Shown piece after piece: positions 10,904-63,406 of a stretch of DNA of 64,000 bases. The DNA is taken from positions 62,001-126,000 of the forward strand of contig NZ_JAJNCZ010000001.1 of assembly GCF_021026345.1 (NCBI RefSeq). The letters are read 5' to 3'. The notes under the pieces were generated by a model that had not been told where the DNA came from, ran no database searches, and worked only from the letters and a program-made list of their open reading frames with translations. Within the stretch, counting starts at the first letter, position 1. The number at the start of each line of letters is the position of its first letter. The stretch comes from Rhizobium sp. GN54 (lineage in GTDB: Bacteria > Pseudomonadota > Alphaproteobacteria > Rhizobiales > Rhizobiaceae). The translations under genes were made by a program, and so were the position numbers.

Positions 10904-12520
10904 ATGGCAGAGATATATCGTACGTCGCGGCGTCGTTTTCTCGCGGGCAGCGGGCAGGCCATCGCGCTGACCGCGGCCGCAGGCATTGCGCCGCAATTCA
11001 TTCGCCCGGGGCGTGCCTTCGCCTCGGATGCGCTGGCGCCCGGAATGATCGGCGGGCCGACGGGTTTCGACGGAGCCGAACGCTACCAGTATGGCCCGGA
11101 TACGCCGGAGGGACGCGCCATCGAGGCCGTCAAGGCGCTCAAGGGTGCCGGCAAGGCGCCGGCCCGCATCGTGCTCGGCCTGTCGGACGGCTCGATCGGC
11201 CAGCTGACGCAGCCCTTCCCGCAAGGCGCGCCGTCGATCAAGGCGCTCTGGGAGAAGGAAACCGGCATCACGCTCGACATCGTCGGCGTGCCGAACGGCC
11301 AGGAATTCACCAAGACGATGCAGGACATCTCCACCAAGGGAGGTGCCTTCGACATCTATGCCGTCGAATGGAACCGGCTCGGCGACCTTGCGGAGGCCGG
11401 CGGCATCGTCGCGCTCGACGACTACGTCGCCCAGCACAGGCCCGAGTGGGACGATGCCGAACGGGGCTATGTCAACGGCCAGAAGGGCGTCTCGCTCTTG
11501 AACCAGTATCGCGGCTCGACCTACGGGGTCTCGCTCGACGGCGACTTCCAGACATGGAACTTCCGCACCGACCTCTTCAGCGACGAGGCGGAAAAGAAGG
11601 CCTTCGCCGACAAGAACGGCTACGAACTGGCGCCGCCGAGGACCTGGAAGGAGCTCGACGCGATCGCCGCCTTCTTCCACCGGCCGGACAAGGGCCTGTT
11701 CGGCTGCACCGACCTGCGCAACCAGGGCTGGGGCTACACCAACTGGTACCAGCGCTTCGTCTCGATGGCGTCGCCGAACCAGTTCCTGTTCGACGACGAC
11801 GGCAAGCCGCTGATCAACGGCGAGGCGGGTTTCCAGGCGACCCGGGAATATATCGACAGCCTGTCCTATCACTCGCCCGATGCGATTTCCTGGGGCTGGC
11901 CGGAGCAATACGGCAATTTCGCCGGCGGCGGTGCGGCGATGACCTGCGCCTTCTCGAACCTGCCGAAGTTCCTCGACAATGCCGCAAACCAGGGTTCGAC
12001 GGTGACCGGCAAGGTCGGTTCGATGCTGCCGCCCGGTCGCGAGATCGACGGGCAGCTCGTCCGGCGCTCCGTCCTCTGGCTCAACCTCTCGGCGTCGGTC
12101 TCCTCGCAGAGCCAGCATCCGGAGGCCTGCTACCTGCTGCTGCAGTGGCTGGGTTCCAGCCGCATCTATTCGTGGATGACGGCCAATCCGGGCGGCTACT
12201 TCGATCCGTTCCAGCTGTCGAACTTCGCCGATCCGCTCGTGCGCCAGACCTACCACGACTACCACATGGATGTTGTCCGCGAGACGGTGGCCCGCACCGT
12301 GCCGACGATCAACTATCCGGGTGCCACCGCCTTCCACAATGCGCTCGACGAGAACCTTGTCGCCGCGCTGACGAAGACCAAGAGCCCGGAAGACGCGATG
12401 GCCGACACGGAACGGCAGTGGAACCGGATCGCGCGGCGCATCGGCGAGGACAAGCTCGTGGCCGCCATCAAGTCCAACAAGGAGGCGTGGCCCACCGTGC
12501 TCGATCCGGTGACCGGCTGA
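10904..12520 (+). CDS. Extracellular carbohydrate-binding protein, Tat-exported (ABC importer)
   Basis: A 538-residue solute-binding protein of the large family-1 type. The N-terminus carries a twin-arginine signal (SRRRFLAG at residues 8-15), a hydrophobic stretch and an AFA cleavage region near residue 40. GAGGGA lies before the ATG. Followed by two permeases and two ATPases, it should deliver a sugar or polyol to that importer. The two-ATPase layout and large binding protein resemble rhizobial glycerol/polyol importers (GlpV type), but the substrate cannot be read from sequence. Confidence 0.9.
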
Positions 12521-52742: not shown

Positions 52743-53212
52743 GGCGGCCTGAATGGACGGCAATCGCAGCGGGGCTCCTGCTTTTCGTCGCGACGGCCGC
52801 GATTGCCCAGGTGGCGACGAAGACCCCGCCGCAACTGGAGGGGCCGACGCCCTCGATGGCAACCGAAGCGGCGCCGCCCCTGCCGAAATGGGTGGTCGAC
52901 GATCAGCGCAAGATGCGCGCCTATCCCGACCAGCCGCCGATCATCCCACATTCGATCGAGGGCTACGAGCTTTCGGTCAACGCCAACCGCTGCCTGTCCT
53001 GCCACAAGCGGGAGTTCACCCAGGATTCCGGCGCGCCGATGATCAGCGTCACGCACTACATGACCCGTGAGGGCCAGATGCTCGCCGACGTTTCGCCGCG
53101 GCGCTACTTCTGCACCGCCTGCCACGTGCCGCAGGCGGACACGCGCCCCCTGGTGCCCAACGGCTTCAGGGACATGAGCGAGATGGGCGTCAAGCCCGCC
53201 GGAAGCGAGTGA
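52709..53212 (+). CDS. napB: NapB, diheme cytochrome c subunit
   Basis: A 167-residue protein with a signal peptide (about residues 1-33, ending AIAQ) and two heme motifs, CLSCH (95-99) and CTACH (135-139). It passes electrons from NapC to NapA. Start overlaps the napA end by 34 nt. Confidence 0.96.
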
Positions 53213-53216
53213 CGCC

Positions 53217-53915
53217 ATGATCAAATGGATAAAGGGCGTCATCCTCTGGGCCTGGAAGATCATCGCCACCCCGGCCGGCACGCTGGGGCTCGGCTTCCTC
53301 ACCCTTGGCGGCTTCGTCGGCGGCGTGATGTTCTGGGGCGCGTTCAACACGGCTCTGGAACTGACCAACACCGAGCAGTTCTGCACCTCCTGCCACGAGA
53401 TGCGCGACAACGTCTATCAGGAGTTGACGCGAACGATCCATTTCTCCAACCGCTCCGGCGTGCGCGCCTCCTGCCCGGATTGCCACGTTCCCCACCAGTG
53501 GACCGACAAGATCGCCCGCAAGATGCAGGCATCGAAGGAGGTGTGGGGCAAGATCTTCGGCACCATCAACACGCGGCCGAAATTTCTGGCACACCGGCTG
53601 GAGTTGGCGCAGCACGAATGGGCGCGCCTGAAGGCCAACGACAGCCTCGAATGCCGCAATTGCCATTCGTCGGTGGCCATGGACCTGCAGAAGCAGACGC
53701 AACGGGCGGCCGAGATCCACACGCGCTACCTGCTTCCCGGCAAGGCGACCTGCATCGATTGCCACAAGGGCATCGCGCATGAATTGCCCAACATGCAGGG
53801 CATCGATCCAGGCTGGAAGATGCCCGCGGAACTGGAAGGCAACCGGGCGTCGAACATGACCCCGATCGACGACCTCAGCCGCGCCATCAACGAACTGCAC
53901 GCGGAAGTCTTCTGA
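53217..53915 (+). CDS. napC: NapC, tetraheme membrane quinol dehydrogenase
   Basis: A 232-residue NapC/NirT protein with one N-terminal helix and four CxxCH motifs at 56-60, 86-90, 146-150 and 179-183. It oxidises quinol and feeds NapB. Last gene of the nap operon; a hairpin follows at 53961. Confidence 0.96.
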
Positions 53916-53960
53916 CGAAGGCGCCTCCCGTGCTCGCGGGGCCGAACAGACCAGAAGAAT

Positions 53961-53988
53961 GGGCGAGACCGCGCCAACGGTCCCGCCC
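53961..53988. terminator. Convergent terminator between napC and the DUF59 gene
   Basis: GGGCGAGACCG (53961-53971) pairs with CGGTCCCGCCC (53978-53988) with one mismatch; TTCCTC follows on the plus strand. It lies between two convergent operons, so it may serve both. Confidence 0.55.
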
Positions 53989-54017
53989 TTCCTCGATTGC
54001 AGGCCCGATGGCCGGCC

Positions 54018-54302
54018 TCAGCTTGCCATCCTGTCGGGTGTCCATGGCGGATCGTAGGTCAGGGTGACGTCGACGTCGCGGGCGCCTTCGACCCCTGCGG
54101 CGCAATCCCGCACCGCGTCGGTCAGGAATGCGGCCGCCGGGCAGCCGCGCGTCGTGGTCGTCATCGCGATGGCGACCGTTCCCTCGTCGTCGCAGTCGAT
54201 CGAATAGATCAGGCCCATCTCCACGACGTTCTTTCCCAGTTCGGGATCGATGACGATCGTTAGCGCTTCGCGGATGCGCAGGGCGAGGGCGTCGTTCGAC
54301 AT
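54018..54302 (-). CDS. DUF59/MIP18-family Fe-S assembly-type protein
   Basis: A 94-residue DUF59 domain (PaaD/SufT/MIP18 type): IDPELGKNVVEMGLIY near residue 18 and TTTTRGCPAAAFL near residue 48, whose Cys is typical of the family. Relatives help place or repair Fe-S clusters. It is the last gene of a four-gene leftward unit and abuts the tandem DUF2249 gene. Confidence 0.87.
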   Translation of the reverse strand: MSNDALALRIREALTIVIDPELGKNVVEMGLIYSIDCDDEGTVAIAMTTTTRGCPAAAFLTDAVRDCAAGVEGARDVDVTLTYDPPWTPDRMAS

Positions 54303-54815
54303 CTACTTCGCCTTCCCGACGCGGATCATGATGCGATAGGTCGTGCGCGCCTCGTCGAAGTTGCCGACCCATTGATGGCCGCGCTTGGCAAGCTCAGGAA
54401 AGAGCAGCAGCGGCTCGCGCGAAAGCAGGGCGAAGATGACCTCGCCCTCGTCCAGCTTCTCGGCTTCCGAGAGGATCCGCACCATCGGTTCGGGCGGCAG
54501 AAGATCGGTGAGGTCGAGGTCCACGACGGGATCCGCCCAGAGCTCGGGCTCGCCGGCATCCGTGGAGAGCTGGACCTCGGGCAGGGCCTTGGGCGTGAAG
54601 CGGATCTCGAAATCGCCGCCCTCCGTCTCGATCACCTCGTGGTCGAACCCCCTGTTGGACATCACGCCGTAGAGCGGCTGGGGGCGGAAGGGGGCGAGAA
54701 GCTTGAGACCCTGTCCGGGACGCAAGGCATCCACGGCGCTCATGATGGCCTGGAAGGGCTCGCCGCCGTTTTCCAGCATCGGACGGACGTCCAGTTCCGC
54801 AAAGTCTTCGTTCAT
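54303..54815 (-). CDS. Tandem DUF2249 protein
   Basis: A 170-residue protein with two DUF2249 units, one starting LDVRPMLENGGEPF (residues 8-70) and a second from about residue 96 (VDLDLTDLLPPEPM to YRIMI). DUF2249 has a small TusA-like fold and occurs with hemerythrins and nitric-oxide genes; its chemistry is not established. Stop and next start are adjacent. Confidence 0.83.
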   Translation of the reverse strand: MNEDFAELDVRPMLENGGEPFQAIMSAVDALRPGQGLKLLAPFRPQPLYGVMSNRGFDHEVIETEGGDFEIRFTPKALPEVQLSTDAGEPELWADPVVDLDLTDLLPPEPMVRILSEAEKLDEGEVIFALLSREPLLLFPELAKRGHQWVGNFDEARTTYRIMIRVGKAK

Positions 54816-54817
54816 TT

Positions 54818-56164
54818 TTATCTCCGGTGCGTGAGGAAGAGATGAGGGGGCAATACGCCCGAAGGCAGCCGTATGTCAGGCGGCGCGCAGGAGAGCCGGC
54901 GGGCCCTGACGAACTCCGCGATCAGCCCGAGCGTCGCCAGTATCTGCAGAACGCCGGCCGCCGTAAACACCTGACGATCGTGGACGAACAGCGCCAGCGC
55001 GCCAACGCCGACCGTCACGATGTAGAGACCGAACCACCAGATCGCCCGACGCTCGTCGACGAGGTCCTGCACGCGGGGAACGGCGGTCTTGCCGAGCACC
55101 GGCCCGTAGCATTCGAGCCAGGTCAGGAAGGGGATGATCTTGTAGAGCTGTCCGAGGCCCAGGCAGGTCAGCCACCCCATGCCCACGAGCCAGACCAGGA
55201 TGGCGGCGCTCTCCGCAAGCGTTCCCTTGAGCAAGGATGCCGTGAAGAGAACGACCGAAACCATCAGGAAGACCACGGCTGCGAGGCTCAGGAGCGTGTT
55301 CAGTTCGGCCGTCTTGCGCCGGCGCTGGCGAAAGATGGCCGCGACGTCGAATGCGTAGAGGCCGAGGCCGACAAAGCCGATGACGCTCGCCCCGGCGACG
55401 GGCCAGACGCCGTCGATCCCGATGGCCGTCATCGCGATCTGCACCGCAAGCAGCAGGATCGCCGCGATGCTGGCGACGAGCACCATCCGCGACGTGCCGC
55501 GGTCGTGCTCCGGCGACAGCAGGAACATCGACAGCAGCCGGTAGGACACGCCGATCGCGGTGATCGTCATCCAGCCGAACAGTCCCATCGTCGCATGCAG
55601 CCCGACGCCGCCGGCCAGGAGATTGAGCGCGTGGACCTCCTCCACGAACCCCGACAGGCCCAGGGTGAAGCACAGCCCCAGCGCCACGGTCAGCCCCATG
55701 GCGACGAGCCCGGTCAGGACGAAGCGGCCGGGAAGCGCCAGCGGCCGCGCCGACCATATCGTGGCGGCGAGGCTCGCAGCCAGTGCGGCGAAACCGGTGG
55801 CAAGCAGGACGCCGCCGACGGGCAGGGCGAGGGGCGGGACGGGCAGGCGGCCGCTGAGGCCGAGGAACCCCGAAAGCAGGACCAGCAGCCCGCAGACGAT
55901 CAGGATCAGCGCCGGCAGCGCCAGGAACGGCGCCTTCAACGGCTTGGCCACCAGGACGGGGACAAACTGCAAAAGCGCGCCGGAGAAGAGGAGCCCGAGC
56001 CATCCGATTGCGAGCGTGTGGACGATCACCAGCGTCTCGGGAGCCTCGACCGCCAGCGCCGGATAGCCGAAGCCCGCCGCCAGCAGGACCTCGCCGCAAA
56101 GCAGGAACACCAGCGCTGCGGCGAAGTAGGACATCGTCCATCTGGAAAGCGTGGCACCAGGCAT
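54818..56164 (-). CDS. Multi-spanning membrane protein of the NO-associated DUF2249 module
   Basis: A 448-residue protein with about twelve helices. Histidines in or near helices include H49 ([13 protein letters not shown]), H178 ([10 protein letters not shown]) and H190 ([13 protein letters not shown]), giving it a heme-copper-oxidase-subunit-I-like or NnrS-like look, though neither family is certain. The start at 56164 has GAGG 8 nt upstream; ATG at 56170 is too close. I cannot assign a function; heme binding is an inference. Confidence 0.72.
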
Positions 56165-56198
56165 CGTCATCACCTCGGCAGGACAGGGTCTCTTTCGT

Positions 56199-56483
56199 TC
56201 AGTGACCGCAGCAGCAGTCGCAACCCGAACTGTCGTGCCTCTTGATAGAAACCCGCCAGACGGCCGGGCCCTGCTCGAGATAGGTCCACTCGAACTGCTC
56301 GGGATAGCGGGTCTCGATCTGGTAGTGCAGCGGTCGCGGGTCGTGATCGCTGGCGACATGCATCATGCCGCCGGGCGCGAGCGCGGTCAGCATTCCGAAG
56401 ATCCTCGGATGGCGCTCCGGCGGAGCAATCGTTCTGACATCGATCAGCGGTATGTTCTCGGAATTCGACATGTTGTTTTCCAT
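56199..56483 (-). CDS. DUF2249 protein with Cys-rich C-terminal tail
   Basis: A 94-residue single DUF2249 domain beginning [20 protein letters not shown] and ending in [10 protein letters not shown], a four-Cys, one-His tail that looks metal- or sulfur-binding. First gene of the leftward four-gene unit and lies 79 nt downstream of an NnrR-like palindrome. Confidence 0.83.
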
Positions 56484-56561
56484 CGGCCCCGATCCGGAAC
56501 TCGGAGGCCGGGCCGGTGCGCCCCCGATCCTTCAAGACTACCGGCCCGCCGCCCGCATCTT

Positions 56562-56577
56562 TTTGTCGCCGGGCAAA
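56562..56577 (-). promoter_or_regulatory. NnrR/FNR-like site upstream of the DUF2249 operon
   Basis: TTTGTCGCCGGGCAAA has TTTG...CAAA arms in a 16-bp frame, the spacing of the other NnrR-like sites in this window (61434, 62521, 62782). It is imperfect in the inner positions. Confidence 0.4.
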
Positions 56578-56632
56578 CAAGATGACGAAATGGAAAGTGA
56601 ATCAGGTCCGCTGAACCTGCCGGAAAGGGAGA

Positions 56633-56662
56633 GGGCCCGGCACTCCGCCTGATGCCGGGCCC
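56633..56662 (-). terminator. Candidate norD terminator
   Basis: GGGCCCGGCA and TGCCGGGCCC form a perfect 10-bp stem with a 10-nt loop, 44 nt past the norD stop. On the minus strand it is followed by TCTCCCTTTCC. It separates norD from the DUF2249 operon. Confidence 0.6.
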
Positions 56663-56706
56663 CCGAGCGACCGACCTCGTCGCTCATCATCGCGGATTTT
56701 CGCCCC

Positions 56707-58605
56707 CTAAGCTGTCAATCCGCGATAGATCGTGGGCAGCGCCACCGGCAGCTTGGAGATGTCGCCGACTAGCGCGTAGCCGTTCCTGCCGAAGAGCGTC
56801 GGAAGGTAGTTGTTGGCGTCCCGGTCCACCGTGACGGCAAAGACGCTCGTTCCCGCCCGCCTGGCCTCCTGCACGGCCTTGCGGGTGTCTTCCAGCGCGA
56901 ACCGTCCCTCGTAATGGTCGATGTCGTTCGGCTTGCCGTCGGTGAGGACCAGCAGCAGCTTCTTCCGGCTCGGCTGCTTCTGCAGGCCGGCGGCGGCGTG
57001 GCGGATGGCGGCGCCCATCCGGGTATAGTAGCCGGGCTTCAGGCCGGCGATGCGATCCTCCGTCGCACGGCTCATCGTCTCGTCGAACCCTTTCACCGTC
57101 TCGATCCGCACCCACGACCGGCGCCGCGACGTGAACGTCAGGATCGAATGCATGCTGCCGCAGGCGGCAAGGCCGTGCGCCAGCACCAGCAGGGCCTCCT
57201 TCTCGACGTCCAGCACGCGGCGATCGTCGACCCAGGCGTCGGTCGAGAGCGAGACGTCGATCAGGATCGTGGTCGCGAGATCGGGGGCGAGCGGCCGGCT
57301 CATCAGGTGGATCCGGTCGCTGCCCTGGCCGCCGGCGGCAAGGTCTGCCCGCGAGCGGATGACGGCGTCGAGGTCGAGTTCCGAACCGTCCAGCTGCGCC
57401 TTCAGCAGTTCATGGCGCGGCCGCAGGACCTCGAACTGGCGGCGCACCTTGCGCACGAGCGAGCGGGTTTCGTTGTCGAGAACGCCTCTTTCGCCGAGAG
57501 CTTCGGCTGGCGTCGCAAGAACGCTGGTGTAGTTCTCCAGATAGCGCCCCTTGCGGTAGTCCCATTCCGGATAGCTGATCTCGGCTGCCATCTCCGACAG
57601 GTCGATCATCTCCGGCGGCAGATCGAGATCGAACCGGAACTTCGAAGACGGCCGTTCCCGCCGCTGGCCGAGCTTCATCTCGTCCAGGTCGTCGGCCGCC
57701 TTGCTGTCGCTGTCCTCGCTGTCGTCCGTCGGCCGGTCGACATTGACCATCTCGGCCATCGCCAGGATCTTCTCGAAGCGGTTTAGGATGAAAGGGCTGC
57801 GCTCGCCCTTGCGCTCGTCCCTGGCCTGCCGCGTCGCCAGGTAGCGCGCATTGCCGGCAAGCCCCTGGTCCTGCGTGCCGTCTCGCGCCGCATCTTCGAT
57901 CGTCGTATCGGTTTCGGAGCGGACATGGAATTCGGGCCAGAGCGGCACGCCCATCATCGGCTGGTAACCGGCAGGAGCATGGTGCGGGAAGATCGCCGGC
58001 GGCGTGTCGTCCTTGAGGCCCGCTCCCGTCTTCAGGAGCCCGAGAATGCGGTTCTCGACGAGTTGCTCGACCGCCGGCAGGATGCCGCGGGCTCGCTCCT
58101 TCAGCGTCGCGGCGCAAAGGCGGCGGTAGGTCGTGCCGAGACCCGGGAATGCGGCGATCACGCGCAGGACGGTTGCCTGCGTGGTCTCGATCCGGCGAAG
58201 GTCCCGCCGGAGCGGGTCCGTTCCGTCCGGCGCCTCCAGCTCCATCAGCGCCATGGCGGCGGCGAGCCAGATGTAGAGGTCGCGGTTGAGCTGACGGTCC
58301 GGGAAGTGGTCGATCACCGGCGGGAGCATCGCGGTGGCGAGGTCGCGGGTGGCGCCCGCCACCTTCTCCTCCCCGAGCCCGACCAGTTGCCGCAGGCGCA
58401 GCCGGTGCCGCGACGTCTTCGCATGCGCCGGGGTCAGTTGGACCGCGGGCGCGCCGCCGAACCCCCTGAAGCAGGAACCGAGGATCGGCTTCAGGTCCTC
58501 GAAGGATACGGCATGGTCGGGATAGCGCGGCATGCTGGCAGTCGACCCGACCAGCCGATGCCAGAACTTGCCGACCGTCTCTTCCAGTTCGAGAAAATCG
58601 AGCAT
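56707..58605 (-). CDS. norD: NorD, von Willebrand A-domain NO reductase activation protein
   Basis: A 632-residue NorD. The C-terminal vWA domain has a MIDAS motif starting at D450 (DVSLSTDAW) and TDGKPNDIDHYEG further on. With the NorQ ATPase it activates the NorCB complex, probably in metal insertion. Last gene of norCBQD, 9 nt after norQ. Confidence 0.95.
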   Translation of the reverse strand: MLDFLELEETVGKFWHRLVGSTASMPRYPDHAVSFEDLKPILGSCFRGFGGAPAVQLTPAHAKTSRHRLRLRQLVGLGEEKVAGATRDLATAMLPPVIDHFPDRQLNRDLYIWLAAAMALMELEAPDGTDPLRRDLRRIETTQATVLRVIAAFPGLGTTYRRLCAATLKERARGILPAVEQLVENRILGLLKTGAGLKDDTPPAIFPHHAPAGYQPMMGVPLWPEFHVRSETDTTIEDAARDGTQDQGLAGNARYLATRQARDERKGERSPFILNRFEKILAMAEMVNVDRPTDDSEDSDSKAADDLDEMKLGQRRERPSSKFRFDLDLPPEMIDLSEMAAEISYPEWDYRKGRYLENYTSVLATPAEALGERGVLDNETRSLVRKVRRQFEVLRPRHELLKAQLDGSELDLDAVIRSRADLAAGGQGSDRIHLMSRPLAPDLATTILIDVSLSTDAWVDDRRVLDVEKEALLVLAHGLAACGSMHSILTFTSRRRSWVRIETVKGFDETMSRATEDRIAGLKPGYYTRMGAAIRHAAAGLQKQPSRKKLLLVLTDGKPNDIDHYEGRFALEDTRKAVQEARRAGTSVFAVTVDRDANNYLPTLFGRNGYALVGDISKLPVALPTIYRGLTA

Positions 58606-58614
58606 GATGGCCTC

Positions 58615-59427
58615 CTAGGCGATCACGGCCTGGGCGACTTCCCGCAATGCGGCGCGGACGTCCGGCTCGTCGGTCAGGGGCTCGATCAGGGCGGCAAGCA
58701 CGGCCTCCCTGGCCGGCATGCCGCTGTCGATCAGGCAGGCGCAATAGACGAGCAGGCGCGTGGAAACGCCTTCCTCGAGATCGTGCCCCTTCATCGCACG
58801 CAGGCGGTGGGCCAGCTCAACGAGCGGGGCGACCTTTGCCGCCTCGAGGCCGCTTTCGGTCGAGACCACGGCAATCTCCTGTTCCTTCGGCAGGAAGTCG
58901 AACTCGATCGCGACGAAGCGCTGCTTGGTCGAAGGCTTCAGCGCCTTCAGGATGTTCTGGTAGCCCGGATTGTAGGAGACGACGAGCATGAAGCCCGGCG
59001 GCGCATCCAGGATCTCGCCGGTTCGCTCGAGCGGCAGGATGCGGCGGTCGTCGGTGAGCGGATGCAGCACGACGGCGACGTCCTTGCGCGCCTCGACGAT
59101 CTCGTCGAGATAGCAGACCCCGCCGGAGCGCACCGCGCGCGACAGCGGCCCGTCCACCCAGACCGTGTCACCACCCTTGAGAAGATAGCGGCCGGTCAGG
59201 TCTGCAGCGGCGAGGTCATCATGGCAGGAGACGGTCGTCAGCGACAGGCCGAGCCGGGCCGCCATATGGCTGACGAAACGGGTCTTGCCGCAGCCGGTCG
59301 GCCCCTTGAGCAGGAGCGGCAGTTGCCTGACGAGCGCGGTCTCGAACAGCTGGCATTCGTTGCCCTGGGGCACGTAGGGCGGAATGTCCGGCCGGGCCTG
59401 AAACGGGGTCGAAGTCAGTACAGTCAT
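58615..59427 (-). CDS. norQ: NorQ, MoxR/CbbQ-type AAA+ ATPase
   Basis: A 270-residue AAA+ protein with Walker A GPTGCGKT (42-49) and Walker B CYLDEIVEA. It works with NorD in maturing NO reductase. The ATG at 59427 has AAGGA 8 nt upstream; the longer frame from 59484 lacks support. Confidence 0.95.
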   Translation of the reverse strand: MTVLTSTPFQARPDIPPYVPQGNECQLFETALVRQLPLLLKGPTGCGKTRFVSHMAARLGLSLTTVSCHDDLAAADLTGRYLLKGGDTVWVDGPLSRAVRSGGVCYLDEIVEARKDVAVVLHPLTDDRRILPLERTGEILDAPPGFMLVVSYNPGYQNILKALKPSTKQRFVAIEFDFLPKEQEIAVVSTESGLEAAKVAPLVELAHRLRAMKGHDLEEGVSTRLLVYCACLIDSGMPAREAVLAALIEPLTDEPDVRAALREVAQAVIA

Positions 59428-59487
59428 GACGGGATTCCTTCGATGGAGGGGGGAATGCAGCTCCGGCAGGCGCCGGAGCCGCATCCT

Positions 59488-60834
59488 TCATTCGGCCGGC
59501 TGGGCCGTTGCGGAGAGGCTGGGCTTGCGCTCCTTGCCCGGCACGAACAGCGCCCAGAGGAACATCAGTGCCGAGATCAGGACGAACACGCCGGAGCCGA
59601 GCCGGATCCAGTAGAACATCGCCAGCTGGTCCTGAACGTCCATGTAGCCTTCGCCGAGCACGCGCTGGAGGTGGACCTGCAGCACGCCGGCAAAGGTCAG
59701 CGCGAAGGTCATCACCGACATGGCCGTGCACATGATCCAGAAGCTCGCGATCGAGAGCCACTGGTTATAGGGCGCGCGACCGCGGATCTCCGGGACCGCA
59801 TAGGCCATGATGGCGAGGTTCAGCATCACATAGGCGCCGAAGAAGGCGAGGTGGCCGTGGGCGGCGGTGACCTGGGTGCCGTGGGTGTAGTAGTTCACCG
59901 ACGACAGGGTGTGCAGGAAGCCCCAGACGCCGGCGCCGAAGAACGCCATGACCGAGCAGCCGATCGACCACAGCAGTGCCGCGCGGTTCGGATGCTTGCG
60001 GCCCGCCTTCCAGGTCATCACGAAGGTGAAGACGACCATGGTGAAGAAGGGGGCGACCTCGAGCGTGGAGAAGAGCGAGCCGATCCACTGCCAGTAGCCC
60101 GGGGCGCCGATCCAGTAATAGTGGTGGCCGGTGCCGAGGATGCCCGAGAACAGCGCCAGGCCGACGATCACGTAGAGCCACTTCTCGACAACCTCGCGGT
60201 CGATGCCGTTCAGCTTGATCATCAGGAAGGCGAGGATCGAGGCCATGATCAGTTCCCACACGCCTTCGACCCACAGATGGACGACGTACCACCAGTACAT
60301 CTTGTCGAGCGCGAGGTTCGTCGGGTTGTAGAAGGCGAACAGGAAGAAGATCGCCACGCCCCAGAGCCCGAAGACCAGGATGTTGGTCACGACGGTCTTG
60401 CGGCCTTTGAGGATCGTCAGCGTCACGTTGTAGAGGAACATCAGCGCGACGATGACGATGCCGACCTTGATCGCGAAGGGTTGCTCCAGGAACTCGCGGC
60501 CCTCGTGGATGTGGAACATGTAGCCGACGACGGCGATCGCGGCGGCGACGAGGAAGAGCCAGAACTGCACGATGGCGATCCTGGTGCTGTAGAGTTCGGT
60601 CTCCGCTTCCTCGGGAAGCAGGTAGTAGGTTGCCCCCATGAAGCCCATCAGCAGCCAGACGATCAGGGCGTTGGTGTGGATCATGCGGACGATGTTGAAG
60701 GGCAGGAGTTCGGACACCGTGTTCGGCAGGACGTAGATCGTCCCTGCGAGCACGCCGAACAGGACCTGGGCGAGAAACAGGCCGAGCGCGCCGTAGAAGT
60801 ACAGCATCGCAACCTTCTGGGTTTGGTATTTCAT
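59488..60834 (-). CDS. norB: Nitric oxide reductase large subunit NorB
   Basis: A 448-residue cNOR subunit, twelve helices, of standard length and without the N-terminal extension of quinol NORs. His-rich helices include MIHTNALIVWLL, GTGHHYYWIG and AAHGHLAFFGAY; the FeB-associated Glu region WVEGVWELIMAS is present. It couples two NO to N2O using electrons from NorC. Lies 21 nt after norC. Confidence 0.97.
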   Translation of the reverse strand: MKYQTQKVAMLYFYGALGLFLAQVLFGVLAGTIYVLPNTVSELLPFNIVRMIHTNALIVWLLMGFMGATYYLLPEEAETELYSTRIAIVQFWLFLVAAAIAVVGYMFHIHEGREFLEQPFAIKVGIVIVALMFLYNVTLTILKGRKTVVTNILVFGLWGVAIFFLFAFYNPTNLALDKMYWWYVVHLWVEGVWELIMASILAFLMIKLNGIDREVVEKWLYVIVGLALFSGILGTGHHYYWIGAPGYWQWIGSLFSTLEVAPFFTMVVFTFVMTWKAGRKHPNRAALLWSIGCSVMAFFGAGVWGFLHTLSSVNYYTHGTQVTAAHGHLAFFGAYVMLNLAIMAYAVPEIRGRAPYNQWLSIASFWIMCTAMSVMTFALTFAGVLQVHLQRVLGEGYMDVQDQLAMFYWIRLGSGVFVLISALMFLWALFVPGKERKPSLSATAQPAE

Positions 60835-60855
60835 GTCAGCGTTCCTTTCCCCTGC

Positions 60856-61308
60856 TCAACCGGCGTCGTTCGGCGGCCAGTTCTGCGTCTTGATGCGGCT
60901 CGTCCATTCGAGGAAGTCCGCCAGATCGTTCAGTTCCTGCTCGGTGAGGTTGAACTGGGGCATCTGGCGCCGGCCCTCGATGCCGGACGGCTGTGCGGCC
61001 ATCCAGCCCTTGAGCGTGTCGCGGGCGCCGTCCGGGTCGGTGTCTCCGCCCCAGCGCTTCCACACGTTGCCGAGTTCCGGTGCAAAGTAGGCACCTTCGC
61101 CGAGCAGCGTGTGGCAGTTGATACAGGAGTTCTTTTCCCACACGTGCTTGCCGCGGGCGACAGAACTCGTCAGCGTCGTCTCGTCCGTGGATGTCGTGCG
61201 TATGTAGTAGTGGCTATGGGCGGTGAGCCCGATGAAGATTGCGAAGAAGAACGCCGAGCCGCCGTAAAAGACGTTTCGGGCTCCTGTCTTTGTCAGGCGT
61301 TCAGCCAT
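60856..61308 (-). CDS. norC: Nitric oxide reductase cytochrome c subunit NorC
   Basis: A 150-residue membrane-anchored cytochrome with one helix (about 13-31) and a CINCH heme motif (62-66). A Met ligand is in RRQMPQF. It delivers electrons to NorB. The ATG at 61308 follows GGGGA; the upstream in-frame ATG at 61374 is less likely. Confidence 0.96.
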   Translation of the reverse strand: MAERLTKTGARNVFYGGSAFFFAIFIGLTAHSHYYIRTTSTDETTLTSSVARGKHVWEKNSCINCHTLLGEGAYFAPELGNVWKRWGGDTDPDGARDTLKGWMAAQPSGIEGRRQMPQFNLTEQELNDLADFLEWTSRIKTQNWPPNDAG

Positions 61309-61433
61309 TCCGAGGTCCCCTTGCATTGGAGGCCGCACCGGTCCTCGGCTTTGCCGCGAGGATATTCGCGGCAACCGGGCGCGATGTGGCGCATACGACC
61401 TTCAGTTTATTGAGGTCTTTCCGGCCGCCCTTC

Positions 61434-61449
61434 TTTGTGATTTTGCAAA
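61434..61449 (-). promoter_or_regulatory. NnrR-like site upstream of norC
   Basis: TTTGTGATTTTGCAAA keeps the TTTG...CAAA arms with one strong half-site (GCAAA). About 126 nt before the norC start, so norCBQD probably has its own NO-responsive promoter. Confidence 0.45.
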
Positions 61450-61527
61450 CAAGAACGCGGTGGAGGGCGAAAGCCCCCGGGGTGCGGCGGACTGACACGC
61501 CTGCAAGGCGGTCGGCCCTCGTCCGGG

Positions 61528-61634
61528 CTAGAGCAATTCCAGCAAAAGTGGGAACCGGTTTTGCGTCTGGAATTGCGTAAAACCAAGAAGATAGAGCATA
61601 GTCGGCGATTCAATAATCGCCGGCAATGCTCTAG
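61528..61634. repeat. Palindromic repeat between norF and norC
   Basis: Outer arms CTAGAGCA (61528-61535) and TGCTCTAG (61627-61634); inner CAATTCCAG with CTGGAATTG (near 61534 and 61567); third hairpin CGGCGATT-CAAT-AATCGCCG (61603-61622). It matches the layout of a common rhizobial dispersed repeat. The norF stop codon lies inside its end. Confidence 0.75.
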
Positions 61635-61909
61635 AACAGGCCGGGTGCTGCGATCCTTGCCAGGATGGCGATGCAGAACAGGATCGGCCAGGCGAGCAGC
61701 GCCGCCGCCAGCGCCGGACGCTCGCGCAGATGCATGAAATCGAGGATGATGAGGCGGGCCTTGAAGACCGTCAGGGCCAGGATCGAGACCAGGGCTGCGA
61801 CCGGCAGCGCCTCGTGCTTCCATTGCGCCGAGATGACGCCCGATACGACGCCCATCATCAAAATCCAGTTGGTGCTCGCAAACAGCGAGCCGGAGGTCTT
61901 GGGGTCCAT
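61631..61909 (-). CDS. norF: NorF, small membrane protein of NO reductase operon
   Basis: A 92-residue protein with three helices, resembling cytochrome oxidase subunit IV (LRERPALAAALLAWPILF near the C-terminus). NorF supports NO reductase activity in other denitrifiers. ATG at 61909 with GGTGAGG upstream. Follows norE after 5 nt. Confidence 0.88.
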   Translation of the reverse strand: MDPKTSGSLFASTNWILMMGVVSGVISAQWKHEALPVAALVSILALTVFKARLIILDFMHLRERPALAAALLAWPILFCIAILARIAAPGLF

Positions 61910-61914
61910 TGGCC

Positions 61915-62466
61915 TCACCCGAAATAGATCAGCGGGAACATGACGAGCCAGACGATGTCGATCACGTGCCAGACGGTCGTCAGCATGACGATGTTGGATC
62001 GCGACGGCCTTCTGGCGACGATGACGAACAGGCCGGCGACAAAGGCGACATGCGCCAGGTGAAAGCCGGTGATCATGAAATACAACTCGAAGAAGGCCGC
62101 AAACGTCGCGTCGCCCGCGTAGCTCAGTTCGGTGCTGTATTCGAAGAGCTTCAGCCCGACGAAGACGAAGCCCAGTGCGGCGGCGAGAAGCAGCGCGATG
62201 CGTTGCTGCATGATGCTGGCGCCGGCGCGGGCCGCCAGTGCTGCCTGCCAGCCGCTGGCCAGCAGCACGACCGTGTTGAAGCCGGCGATGCGCGCCGACA
62301 GGTGAAGTTTTGCTGCGCCGAAGCTCTCCGGATGAAGCACGGACATGACGAGGAAGCCGCCGAGGAGAATGCCGAAGGCGGCCAGTTCGCTGAAGACGAG
62401 GACCCACAGAAGCAGGTCGCCTCCCTCGTCGGACGCCTCGTCCTGTGATAGCGGCGCCATGGTCAT
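61915..62466 (-). CDS. norE: NorE, cytochrome c oxidase subunit III-like protein
   Basis: A 183-residue protein with five helices of the cytochrome oxidase subunit III family (LWVLVFSELAAFGILLGGF and FHLAHVAFVAGL segments). It assists NO reductase. GGAG lies 7 nt before the ATG at 62466; a second ATG two codons on is possible. Confidence 0.9.
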   Translation of the reverse strand: MTMAPLSQDEASDEGGDLLLWVLVFSELAAFGILLGGFLVMSVLHPESFGAAKLHLSARIAGFNTVVLLASGWQAALAARAGASIMQQRIALLLAAALGFVFVGLKLFEYSTELSYAGDATFAAFFELYFMITGFHLAHVAFVAGLFVIVARRPSRSNIVMLTTVWHVIDIVWLVMFPLIYFG

Positions 62467-62520
62467 TCTGCATCTCCATCTCTGTCCGGCAGAATGCTTG
62501 GCATCTCCACCACCGCCGTT

Positions 62521-62538
62521 CTTTGCGCTTTCGCAAAG
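62521..62538. promoter_or_regulatory. Perfect NnrR-type palindrome between norE and a divergent small ORF
   Basis: CTTTGCG-CTTT-CGCAAAG is a perfect palindrome with 7-bp arms, matching the TTGCG-N4-CGCAA pattern of NnrR sites in alphaproteobacteria. It lies 55 nt before norE and 52 nt before the ORF at 62590, so it could control both. Confidence 0.65.
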
Positions 62539-62589
62539 ACGGAGCTGGCGGGAAGGCTAGGATCGGGGCGATTGACAGGGTTTACCAGA

Positions 62590-62745
62590 ATGTCTGACGC
62601 ACAAGCCGGCCTGCTCGTGGCCACGCCGATCATCATTGTCTTTGCGATCGCGCTCTATCGGATGGGCGTGCTCCAGCGCTACAGCGCCGTCTCCGCCGTC
62701 GTGTTTTCCGTTGCGATCGCAGCAGTGCTGTTCGTGCAGCAATAG
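62590..62745 (+). CDS. 51-aa predicted membrane protein divergent from norE
   Basis: Two short hydrophobic stretches (LLVATPIIIVFAIALY and VSAVVFSVAIAAVLFV) around a basic turn. The NnrR-type palindrome lies upstream. Family not recognised; a weak ribosome site reduces confidence. It precedes the ftr genes. Confidence 0.5.
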   Translation: MSDAQAGLLVATPIIIVFAIALYRMGVLQRYSAVSAVVFSVAIAAVLFVQQ

Positions 62746-62781
62746 AGACGCCTGCGACAGGTCCACGCTCAAAATCGAAGT

Positions 62782-62801
62782 TGTTTGCTCCAGCGCAAAC
62801 A
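62782..62801 (+). promoter_or_regulatory. NnrR-like palindrome upstream of ftrA
   Basis: TGTTTGCTCCAGCGCAAACA has perfect 7-bp arms around a 6-nt centre and contains TTTGC...GCAAA, as in the norE site. It lies 60 nt before the ftrA start. Confidence 0.5.
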
Positions 62802-62860
62802 GCGCACGCCATGATTGCGCATAAACATGACTCGTTATCTCATATTAACGGGGACATCTC

Positions 62861-63406
62861 ATGCGCCTATCTCGATCCCTTTCCCTCGCCGGCATCGGCC
62901 TTCTCGGCCTGTCGCTCCAGTCCGCCATCGCTGCGGAATATCCGATCGGTGAACCGCAACTCGTCAGCGGCATGGAGATCGCAGCCGTCTATCTCCAGCC
63001 GATCGAAATGGAGCCGGAAGGCATGATGGCGCCGGCAAGCGAGACGGACATCCATCTCGAGGCCGATATCCACGCGACGGCCGACAATGCGAACGGCTTT
63101 GCCGAAGGCGACTGGCTGCCGAACCTGTCCATCGACTACCGGCTCACCAGGATCGACGATGGCCAGATGGTCAGCGGCACGCTCATGACCATGGTGGCGA
63201 GCGACGGCCCGCACTATGGCGACAACGTCAAGCTCAAGGGGCCCGGCAAGTACCGCCTCGAACTGGTCGTCAACAGTGGCGGCGAAGGCCATGGCCATTT
63301 CGGCCGCCATGTCGACAAGGAGACGGGCGTCGCCGCCTGGCCCGAACCGGTGACCCTGTCCTACGAGTTCGCCTTCACCGGCACCGGCAAGAAGGGCGCG
63401 TACTGA
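62861..63406 (+). CDS. ftrA: FtrA/P19-type periplasmic iron-binding protein
   Basis: A 181-residue protein of the Tp34/P19/FetP family with a signal peptide (about 24 residues) and metal-site segments such as HLEADIHATADN and GPHYGDN. In FtrABCD systems it captures periplasmic ferrous iron, perhaps with copper. ATG at 62861. Followed 1 nt later by a cupredoxin gene. Confidence 0.88.
   Translation: MRLSRSLSLAGIGLLGLSLQSAIAAEYPIGEPQLVSGMEIAAVYLQPIEMEPEGMMAPASETDIHLEADIHATADNANGFAEGDWLPNLSIDYRLTRIDDGQMVSGTLMTMVASDGPHYGDNVKLKGPGKYRLELVVNSGGEGHGHFGRHVDKETGVAAWPEPVTLSYEFAFTGTGKKGAY

Follow-up and report, generated by a model that had tools for sequence, protein, structure and literature searches.

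A conserved DUF2249, membrane protein and DUF59 gene module beside denitrification genes in Rhizobium sp. GN54 and its possible role in protecting iron centres from nitric oxide

We analyzed a window of 64,000 nucleotides from Rhizobium sp. GN54 (RefSeq assembly GCF_021026345.1, contig NZ_JAJNCZ010000001.1, positions 62,001 to 126,000), in which four tightly packed genes on the minus strand lie between the nap and nor genes. An earlier note on this DNA had marked them as a module linked to nitric oxide (NO), and all four are found where it placed them, separated by gaps of 34, 2, and 0 nt. The first gene (56199..56483) encodes a 94-residue protein with a single DUF2249 domain (PF10006, 2.2e-28), here called DUF2249a. 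The second (54818..56164) encodes a membrane protein of 448 residues, here called MEM, whose start we placed where its relatives align, the open frame extending further upstream. The third (54303..54815) encodes a 170-residue tandem DUF2249 protein that matches PF10006 in two stretches (2e-31), and the fourth (54018..54302) a 94-residue DUF59 protein, also named FeS_assembly_P (PF01883, 5.8e-18). The nap genes, on the plus strand and convergent to the module, end at 53915; a hairpin 3′ of the DUF59 gene (53950..53995, minus strand; -31.4 kcal/mol, z -5.6) is the probable terminator of the module. Upstream lie norCBQD, on the minus strand, with the end of norD at 56707. The terminator reported earlier on this side corresponds to a GC-rich hairpin 3′ of norD (about 56631..56664, minus strand; -28.9 kcal/mol, z -2.9) which, with its T-poor tail, is a possible terminator between nor and the module. 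A search of the source genome found three DUF2249 domains, all of them within these genes, and two further DUF59 matches elsewhere.

A profile of eight MEM sequences run against genome contigs detected at least 541 relatives; counts per locus refer to the best 80, which are the closest ones, belong mostly to Rhizobiales, and cannot be taken as independent of one another. The order DUF2249a, MEM, tandem DUF2249, DUF59 on one strand is kept in 68 of the 80 loci, and one further locus keeps it with the tandem DUF2249 gene split in two pieces. MEM and the tandem DUF2249 protein are present in all 80, DUF59 in 76, and DUF2249a in 70; under looser rules, DUF59 is missing only from L053, L061, and L076. 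These three loci carry a small gene family (cluster 72) near 11850-12000, where DUF59 is missing. Among the matches listed, the nearest named relative is Mycoplana azooxidifex (L012), whose MEM is 93% identical. The module is also present on pSymA of Sinorhizobium meliloti 1021, at about 687405-689922, and MEM matches occur in 115 plasmid records, chiefly from Sinorhizobium and Rhizobium. In the Sinorhizobium sp. CCBAU 05631 annotation, the genes read as DUF2249, hypothetical protein, DUF2249, and metal-sulfur cluster assembly factor.

The neighborhood of the module shows the co-occurrence with NO genes that the earlier note had proposed to look for: in 70 of the 80 loci there is a core denitrification gene (nirK, nirV, norB, norC, norQ, norD, nosR, or nosZ) within about 10 kb. 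With neighbor families named by Pfam from representative sequences, nirK lies within this distance in 56 loci, norB in 52, and nosZ in 9, together with nnrS (58), hemN (50), nnrU (31), a hemerythrin gene (29), and pseudoazurin (29); a Crp/Fnr-type regulator gene is nearby in 68. In the source genome itself, nirK lies at C1:138479-139453, 12.5 kb past the end of the window.

The link also holds at the level of whole genomes. An even sample of 297 genomes of the order, including that of the window, contains NirK above cut-off in 59 and cNorB at E 1e-40 in 47; MEM matches 13 of them, and after a partial match was dropped (G209, E 4.9e-4), 12 were used. NirK is present in 10 of these 12 genomes compared to 49 of the 285 others (Fisher p 2e-6, a test that, wherever used here, treats related genomes as independent). 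Likewise, NirK is above cut-off in 20 of the 23 genomes whose MEM is of the close form, the exceptions being G055, G195, and G442; the last has a NorB-like match at 1.5e-34.

Distant relatives of MEM extend this association. Among 398 genomes of the phylum, 54 match MEM, 13 with the close form, 40 with a divergent form, and one (G374) with a weak partial match. We examined the surroundings of 20 MEM genes, 17 divergent (L121-L133, L136-L139) and three close (L134, L135, L140). By tblastn, DUF59 is found only in the three close loci and in none of the 17 divergent ones; L134 and L135 have the order MEM, tandem DUF2249, DUF59, DUF2249a. A gene of a single family (cluster 1) lies no more than about 3 kb from MEM in 14 of the 17 divergent loci; it is a hemerythrin in all six of the 14 loci that were scanned. 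The hemerythrin of L125 has a DUF2249 N-terminus at 26.9 bits, under the cut-off of 29.5, and L131 has the order hemerythrin, DUF2249, MEM, with norC and norB from 1.4 kb on. We tested 22 of the 40 divergent genomes for NirS-type and cNorB genes, and the resulting figures are without a lineage baseline: 16 of the 22 match PF02239 at E <1e-100, in line with NirS or a relative of it, and cNorB is found in 5/19 and 3/3 of those tested. One or the other is present in 19 of the 22, and neither in G322, G347, and G390. Because the distant relatives lie mostly in NirS-type genomes, the common factor is NO, not NirK. A strict tie of the module to NirK or cNor was rejected, given these NirS-type genomes and the two exceptions G055 and G195. 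Several of the 17 divergent loci also have an adjoining transglycosylase/solute-binding-protein gene (cluster 2) or radical SAM gene (cluster 3).

The NnrR-like box previously noted upstream of the module is a TTG-N8-CAA sequence of the NnrR/FNR class at 56563..56576, about 80 nt upstream of the first ATG. In 65 of 68 loci, the start of DUF2249a has such a box within the preceding 180 bp (65 of 68 also at 250 bp), mostly at about 85 to 117 bp and with spacers that vary between loci; as a control, 313 of 3160 random segments of 280 bp drawn from the same loci contain one. By the same test it is found upstream of norC (52/52) and norE (52/52), compared with 0/53 for norB, 0/53 for norD, 0/76 for DUF59, 0/13 for napD, 6/80 for MEM, 11/80 for the tandem DUF2249 gene, and 4/52 for norQ. 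Where loci are taken with MEM as the first gene, 6 of 11 have a box within 250 bp. We rejected the idea that the window is unusual in its number of boxes (6 against a Markov mean of 6.6, or 164 against 155 with up to one mismatch); since the count matches chance, only the position and conservation of the box carry weight. Given that the box stands before the module and is of the same class as those of the nor promoters, the module looks like a transcription unit of its own. FixK2/FNR-class regulators are able to use the same kind of box, and so NnrR is only a putative regulator of the module. According to PMC6710368, many NnrR-dependent genes of Bradyrhizobium diazoefficiens have such boxes, in a table that is preselected for a FixK2-type box and whose authors call the NnrR consensus undefined. 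No sigma-70-like site was detected by a promoter scan of 53000-63000. Another TTG-N8-CAA box in the window, at 62785-62798, lies 62 nt upstream of a plus-strand gene (62861-63406) for a Fe2+ transport protein (PF10634, 6.5e-63), and this iron-uptake gene may share denitrification control.

MEM has no match above cut-off in Pfam or NCBIfam, no match to PF00115, and no match to the Protein Data Bank (PDB) by sequence up to E 1. Its AlphaFold2 model, built with 54 sequences, has 12 long helices, with a predicted local distance difference test (pLDDT) of 92.6 and a predicted template modeling score (pTM) of 0.92. In a Foldseek search of the PDB, this model finds CcoN (3mk7, 3.8e-7), NorB of Roseobacter (4xyd, 3.0e-6), and Pseudomonas NorB (4.2e-6), and among the rows listed, the best 50, all are oxidases or NO reductases (query TM-score, TMq, 0.54-0.67); viral structures yielded no hit at or below E 0.001. 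We therefore predict with high confidence that MEM has the 12-helix fold of heme-copper oxidases (HCO) and NO reductases. Profile comparison detects a weak internal repeat, with the second transmembrane helix (TM2) aligning to TM10 at P 0.0011 (probability 21%) and the four-helix units at P 0.028 (2 vs 3) and P 0.12 (1 vs 2). The TM2/TM10 alignment is in keeping with a repeat of the oxidase fold.

Among the His and Cys residues of MEM, the only invariant ones are H49 in TM2 (codon 56018..56020, minus strand) and H190 in TM6 (codon 55595..55597, minus strand), and it is to these two that the in-helix histidines of the earlier note come down. Both are present in 81 of 81 sequences, in 54 of 54 in another alignment, in all 17 divergent loci, and in two close outliers. 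The loop charges, with 15 K/R on the inner side and one on the outer side, put both termini of MEM inside, and so H49 and H190 each close to the periplasmic end of its helix, TM2 or TM6; oxidases hold their hemes at about the depth of these helix ends. A heme in MEM is plausible because of the predicted oxidase/NO reductase fold and the two invariant histidines. The catalytic subunits of heme-copper oxidases and NO reductases have six ligand histidines; MEM has their 12-helix fold in prediction, without the six ligands and without PF00115. Because the other ligand histidines are absent, MEM cannot form the binuclear center of an oxidase or NO reductase.

The TM2 histidine lies in a motif, H-x4-G-x7-G-x6-P, that is present in 80 of 80 MEM, 55 of 55 NnrS, and 6 of 6 CcoN sequences (there in TM10); of 420 other chosen frames at least 300 aa long, 6 contain it, as do 21 of 5000 shuffled sequences. 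The motif was chosen after viewing MEM alignments with NnrS and CcoN that are themselves not significant. Membership of MEM in the NnrS family by sequence was rejected (no PF05940 match up to E 1; hhalign P 0.02).

Turning to the soluble proteins, DUF2249a conserves H47 (70/70), H25 (69/70), and Y68 (70/70). The CxCCCxH ending described earlier is present in the window protein as GCDCCCGH (56202..56225, minus strand); it is not universal, being found in 63 of 70 sequences and absent in L048, L056, L064, L066, L067, L073, and L081, and we rejected it as a defining feature. The tandem DUF2249 model (pLDDT 91.9, pTM 0.60) has the same strand-helix order twice, and its second half also matches TusA above the Pfam cut-off (PF01206, 3.3e-8; 33.7 bits vs 28.6). 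The best Foldseek rows are TusA structures (1dcj, E 0.028; 3lvj_C, 0.044), none at 0.001, with target TM-scores (TMt) of 0.72-0.82 against 1dcj, 3lvj_C, 3lvk_B, and 3hz7; hmmsearch finds TusA 3lvj_C at E 0.0074 across the second domain. TusA is a sulfur carrier whose active cysteine lies in a Cys-Pro-x-Pro motif. The tandem protein of the window has no cysteine, the commonest Cys column of the family reaches only 14 of 81, and TusA-type sulfur carriage is therefore impossible for it. It also has no Pfam match to DUF1858.

The DUF59 protein keeps Cys54, within TTTxxGCP, in 77 of 77 sequences. A cysteine in TxxGCP is the mark of the DUF59/MIP18 iron-sulfur (Fe-S) assembly family, to which this residue and the PF01883 match assign the protein, in agreement with its earlier description as an Fe-S-type protein. 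Its scores are under the NCBIfam cut-offs of the SufT, SUF-associated DUF59, and PaaD equivalogs (bits/cut-off: TIGR02945 87.6/143.4, TIGR03406 62.2/202.6, NF041868 71.1/180, TIGR02159 47.6/108.15).

We tentatively propose that the module is induced by NO and that an NnrS-like, probably heme-binding MEM acts with cytoplasmic DUF2249 and DUF59 partners in protecting or repairing iron centers. The four genes would form one NO-induced transcription unit, as suggested by the conserved box of the kind common to norC and norE. MEM would be a degenerate member of the predicted heme-copper oxidase fold, with a histidine kept in each of TM2 and TM6, and would probably bind a single b-type heme at H49/H190; like the oxidase-related NnrS, it is probably not an NO-respiring protein. 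The DUF2249 proteins and DUF59 may act at the cytoplasmic face of MEM, where the module would keep iron or Fe-S centers from nitrosylation or help to rebuild them. The hemerythrin neighbors of distant MEM point toward iron protection, as NnrS does. NnrS does not remove NO but shields the iron pool from dinitrosyl iron complexes, as stated in PMC9246220 and PMC11526790 with reference to earlier work, and in this it is the strongest precedent for such a role.

Several observations weigh against this proposal. A core denitrification gene is out of reach in ten of the 80 loci (L037, L056, L064, L066, L072, L073, L077, L080, L081, and L090); six of them are only 4.7 to 14.7 kb long, and six have nnrS or ccoN. 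In the sample of 297 genomes, cNorB is found in only 6 of the 12 MEM-positive genomes compared with 41 of the 285 others (p 0.005), and 49 of the 59 NirK-positive genomes lack MEM, which makes the module dispensable for denitrification. In the MEM-positive genomes G055 and G195, NirK does not reach its cut-off and there is no NorB-like match at E 1e-8; their PF02239 matches are weak, at E about 1e-6, though just above the family cut-off. The H-x4-G-x7-G-x6-P motif is present in none of seven NorB sequences, and the MEM profile does not significantly match the NnrS, CcoN, or NorB alignments (P 0.02, 0.11, and 0.4), so that the aligned stretches serve as leads only.

An alternative that we consider rather unlikely is that the module is a maturation factor that assembles the metal centers of NirK, cNor, or cbb3 oxidase by inserting copper or heme, with the Cys-rich tail of DUF2249a as a metal site. 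The high frequency of NirK in close-form genomes (20/23) would fit such a factor, as would the neighboring nirKV, norQD, hemN, and ccoNOP-fixI genes, but the module is absent from 49 of 59 NirK-positive genomes, is present in two genomes with neither NirK over cut-off nor a NorB-like match, and in its distant form is associated with NirS-type genomes (16 of the 22 examined). The tail itself cuts both ways: most DUF2249a sequences have it (63/70), and the seven that do not would be without the metal site.

A second alternative, which seems doubtful to us, is that the DUF2249 pair and MEM report nitrogen oxides as a sensor. To our knowledge, DUF59 is not known as a signaling domain, and the module has no output domain, regulator gene, or DUF1858 match; a Crp/Fnr-type regulator gene is already near in 68 of 80 loci. 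What speaks for this idea comes from Thermus thermophilus, where single and tandem DUF2249 proteins are likewise paired: DrpA is a single DUF2249 protein and DrpB a DUF1858 domain with two DUF2249 domains, the drpAB double mutant no longer grows anaerobically on nitrate, with nar expression nitrate-independent, and the authors propose nitrate sensing (PMC6282519). Apart from this comparison, the DUF1858 gene bsl7085 of B. diazoefficiens is down 29-fold in an nnrR mutant (PMC6710368, Table 1), and the same domain is the one fused in DrpB.

Only a small chance, in our estimate, attaches to a further possibility, that the oxidase fold has been reused for a non-respiratory, NO-responsive heme protein, with one heme held by the TM2 and TM6 histidines between the first two pseudo-repeats, which passes NO, electrons, or a signal to its TusA-like partners, themselves without the cysteine of TusA, and to DUF59 as an Fe-S carrier. 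We know of no oxidase with a heme at this TM2/TM6 site. If true, such a relay would be a membrane-bound complex for Fe-S protection or repair, distinct from NnrS and from the hemerythrin-type RIC/YtfE. It is very improbable that MEM is an enzyme that reduces NO or carries electrons between quinol and cytoplasmic partners, as its predicted NO reductase fold and nor neighborhood might suggest, since two invariant histidines are too few for a heme and an FeB/CuB center.

The proposed role in iron protection bears on a wider problem: denitrifiers produce NO themselves, and how their Fe-S and heme enzymes survive it is only partly known. The module consists of four deletable genes with a conserved promoter box and is open to direct test, and DUF2249, a domain of little described function, gains a structural and operon-level hypothesis.

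Other features of the surroundings are as follows. Past the window end (C1:125001-145000, L160) lie U32-peptidase-family genes (ubiU/ubiV-like) and genes for pseudoazurin, a Crp-type regulator, nirV, nirK, and nnrS, with a hemerythrin match at C1:129253-129672. A second, divergent NirK-type match is on another contig (C11:9148-10038; 320.7 bits, above the family cut-off). Opposite the nor genes, a plus-strand open frame of 1162 aa (57925-61413) is most likely a spurious antisense frame in GC-rich DNA.

Where the earlier note knew of no described function for this set of genes, this has to be amended, since published work (PMC6282519; PMC11218638) already connects DUF2249 with denitrification and with the heme-copper oxidase superfamily. 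The four DUF2249 genes of Haloferax mediterranei are all up under denitrification (PMC11218638), and the same paper cites Pei et al. 2014 as tying DUF2249 to this superfamily. Within the literature collection searched, no paper turned up on DUF59 together with nirK and norB, nor on six locus tags of Sinorhizobium. The nearest studied DUF2249 pair is DrpA/DrpB of Thermus, which resembles the module in having single and tandem DUF2249 proteins beside nitrate respiration genes; the module differs in having no DUF1858 and in its added membrane protein and DUF59, and in Thermus the sensor role stands as a proposal. The DUF2249 domains are built like TusA, the second tandem domain scoring above the Pfam TusA cut-off, but the tandem protein is without cysteine. 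Hemerythrin-type YtfE/RIC proteins give NO-linked protection of iron; hemerythrin genes lie near distant MEM homologues, whereas the operon here is without one.

The membrane protein has three points of comparison. CcoN of cbb3 oxidase and NorB of cNor share its predicted fold, and CcoN also the H-x4-G-x7-G-x6-P motif, which NorB lacks; MEM is set apart from both by its missing ligand histidines and PF00115 match. NnrS (PF05940), which is present in 58 of the 80 loci, is likewise a membrane protein from denitrification clusters and has the same motif, but nine NnrS sequences have six invariant histidines compared to two in MEM, which has operon partners of its own and no PF05940 match. Finally, the HCO homology (HCOH) proteins of Pei et al. 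2014 reportedly have three four-helix units, two conserved histidines, and a denitrification context. By this definition MEM resembles them in its 12 helices, predicted oxidase fold, two conserved histidines, and denitrification neighborhood, with a weak internal repeat, and differs in its operon with DUF59 and two DUF2249 proteins; the MEM family may already be described in that work.

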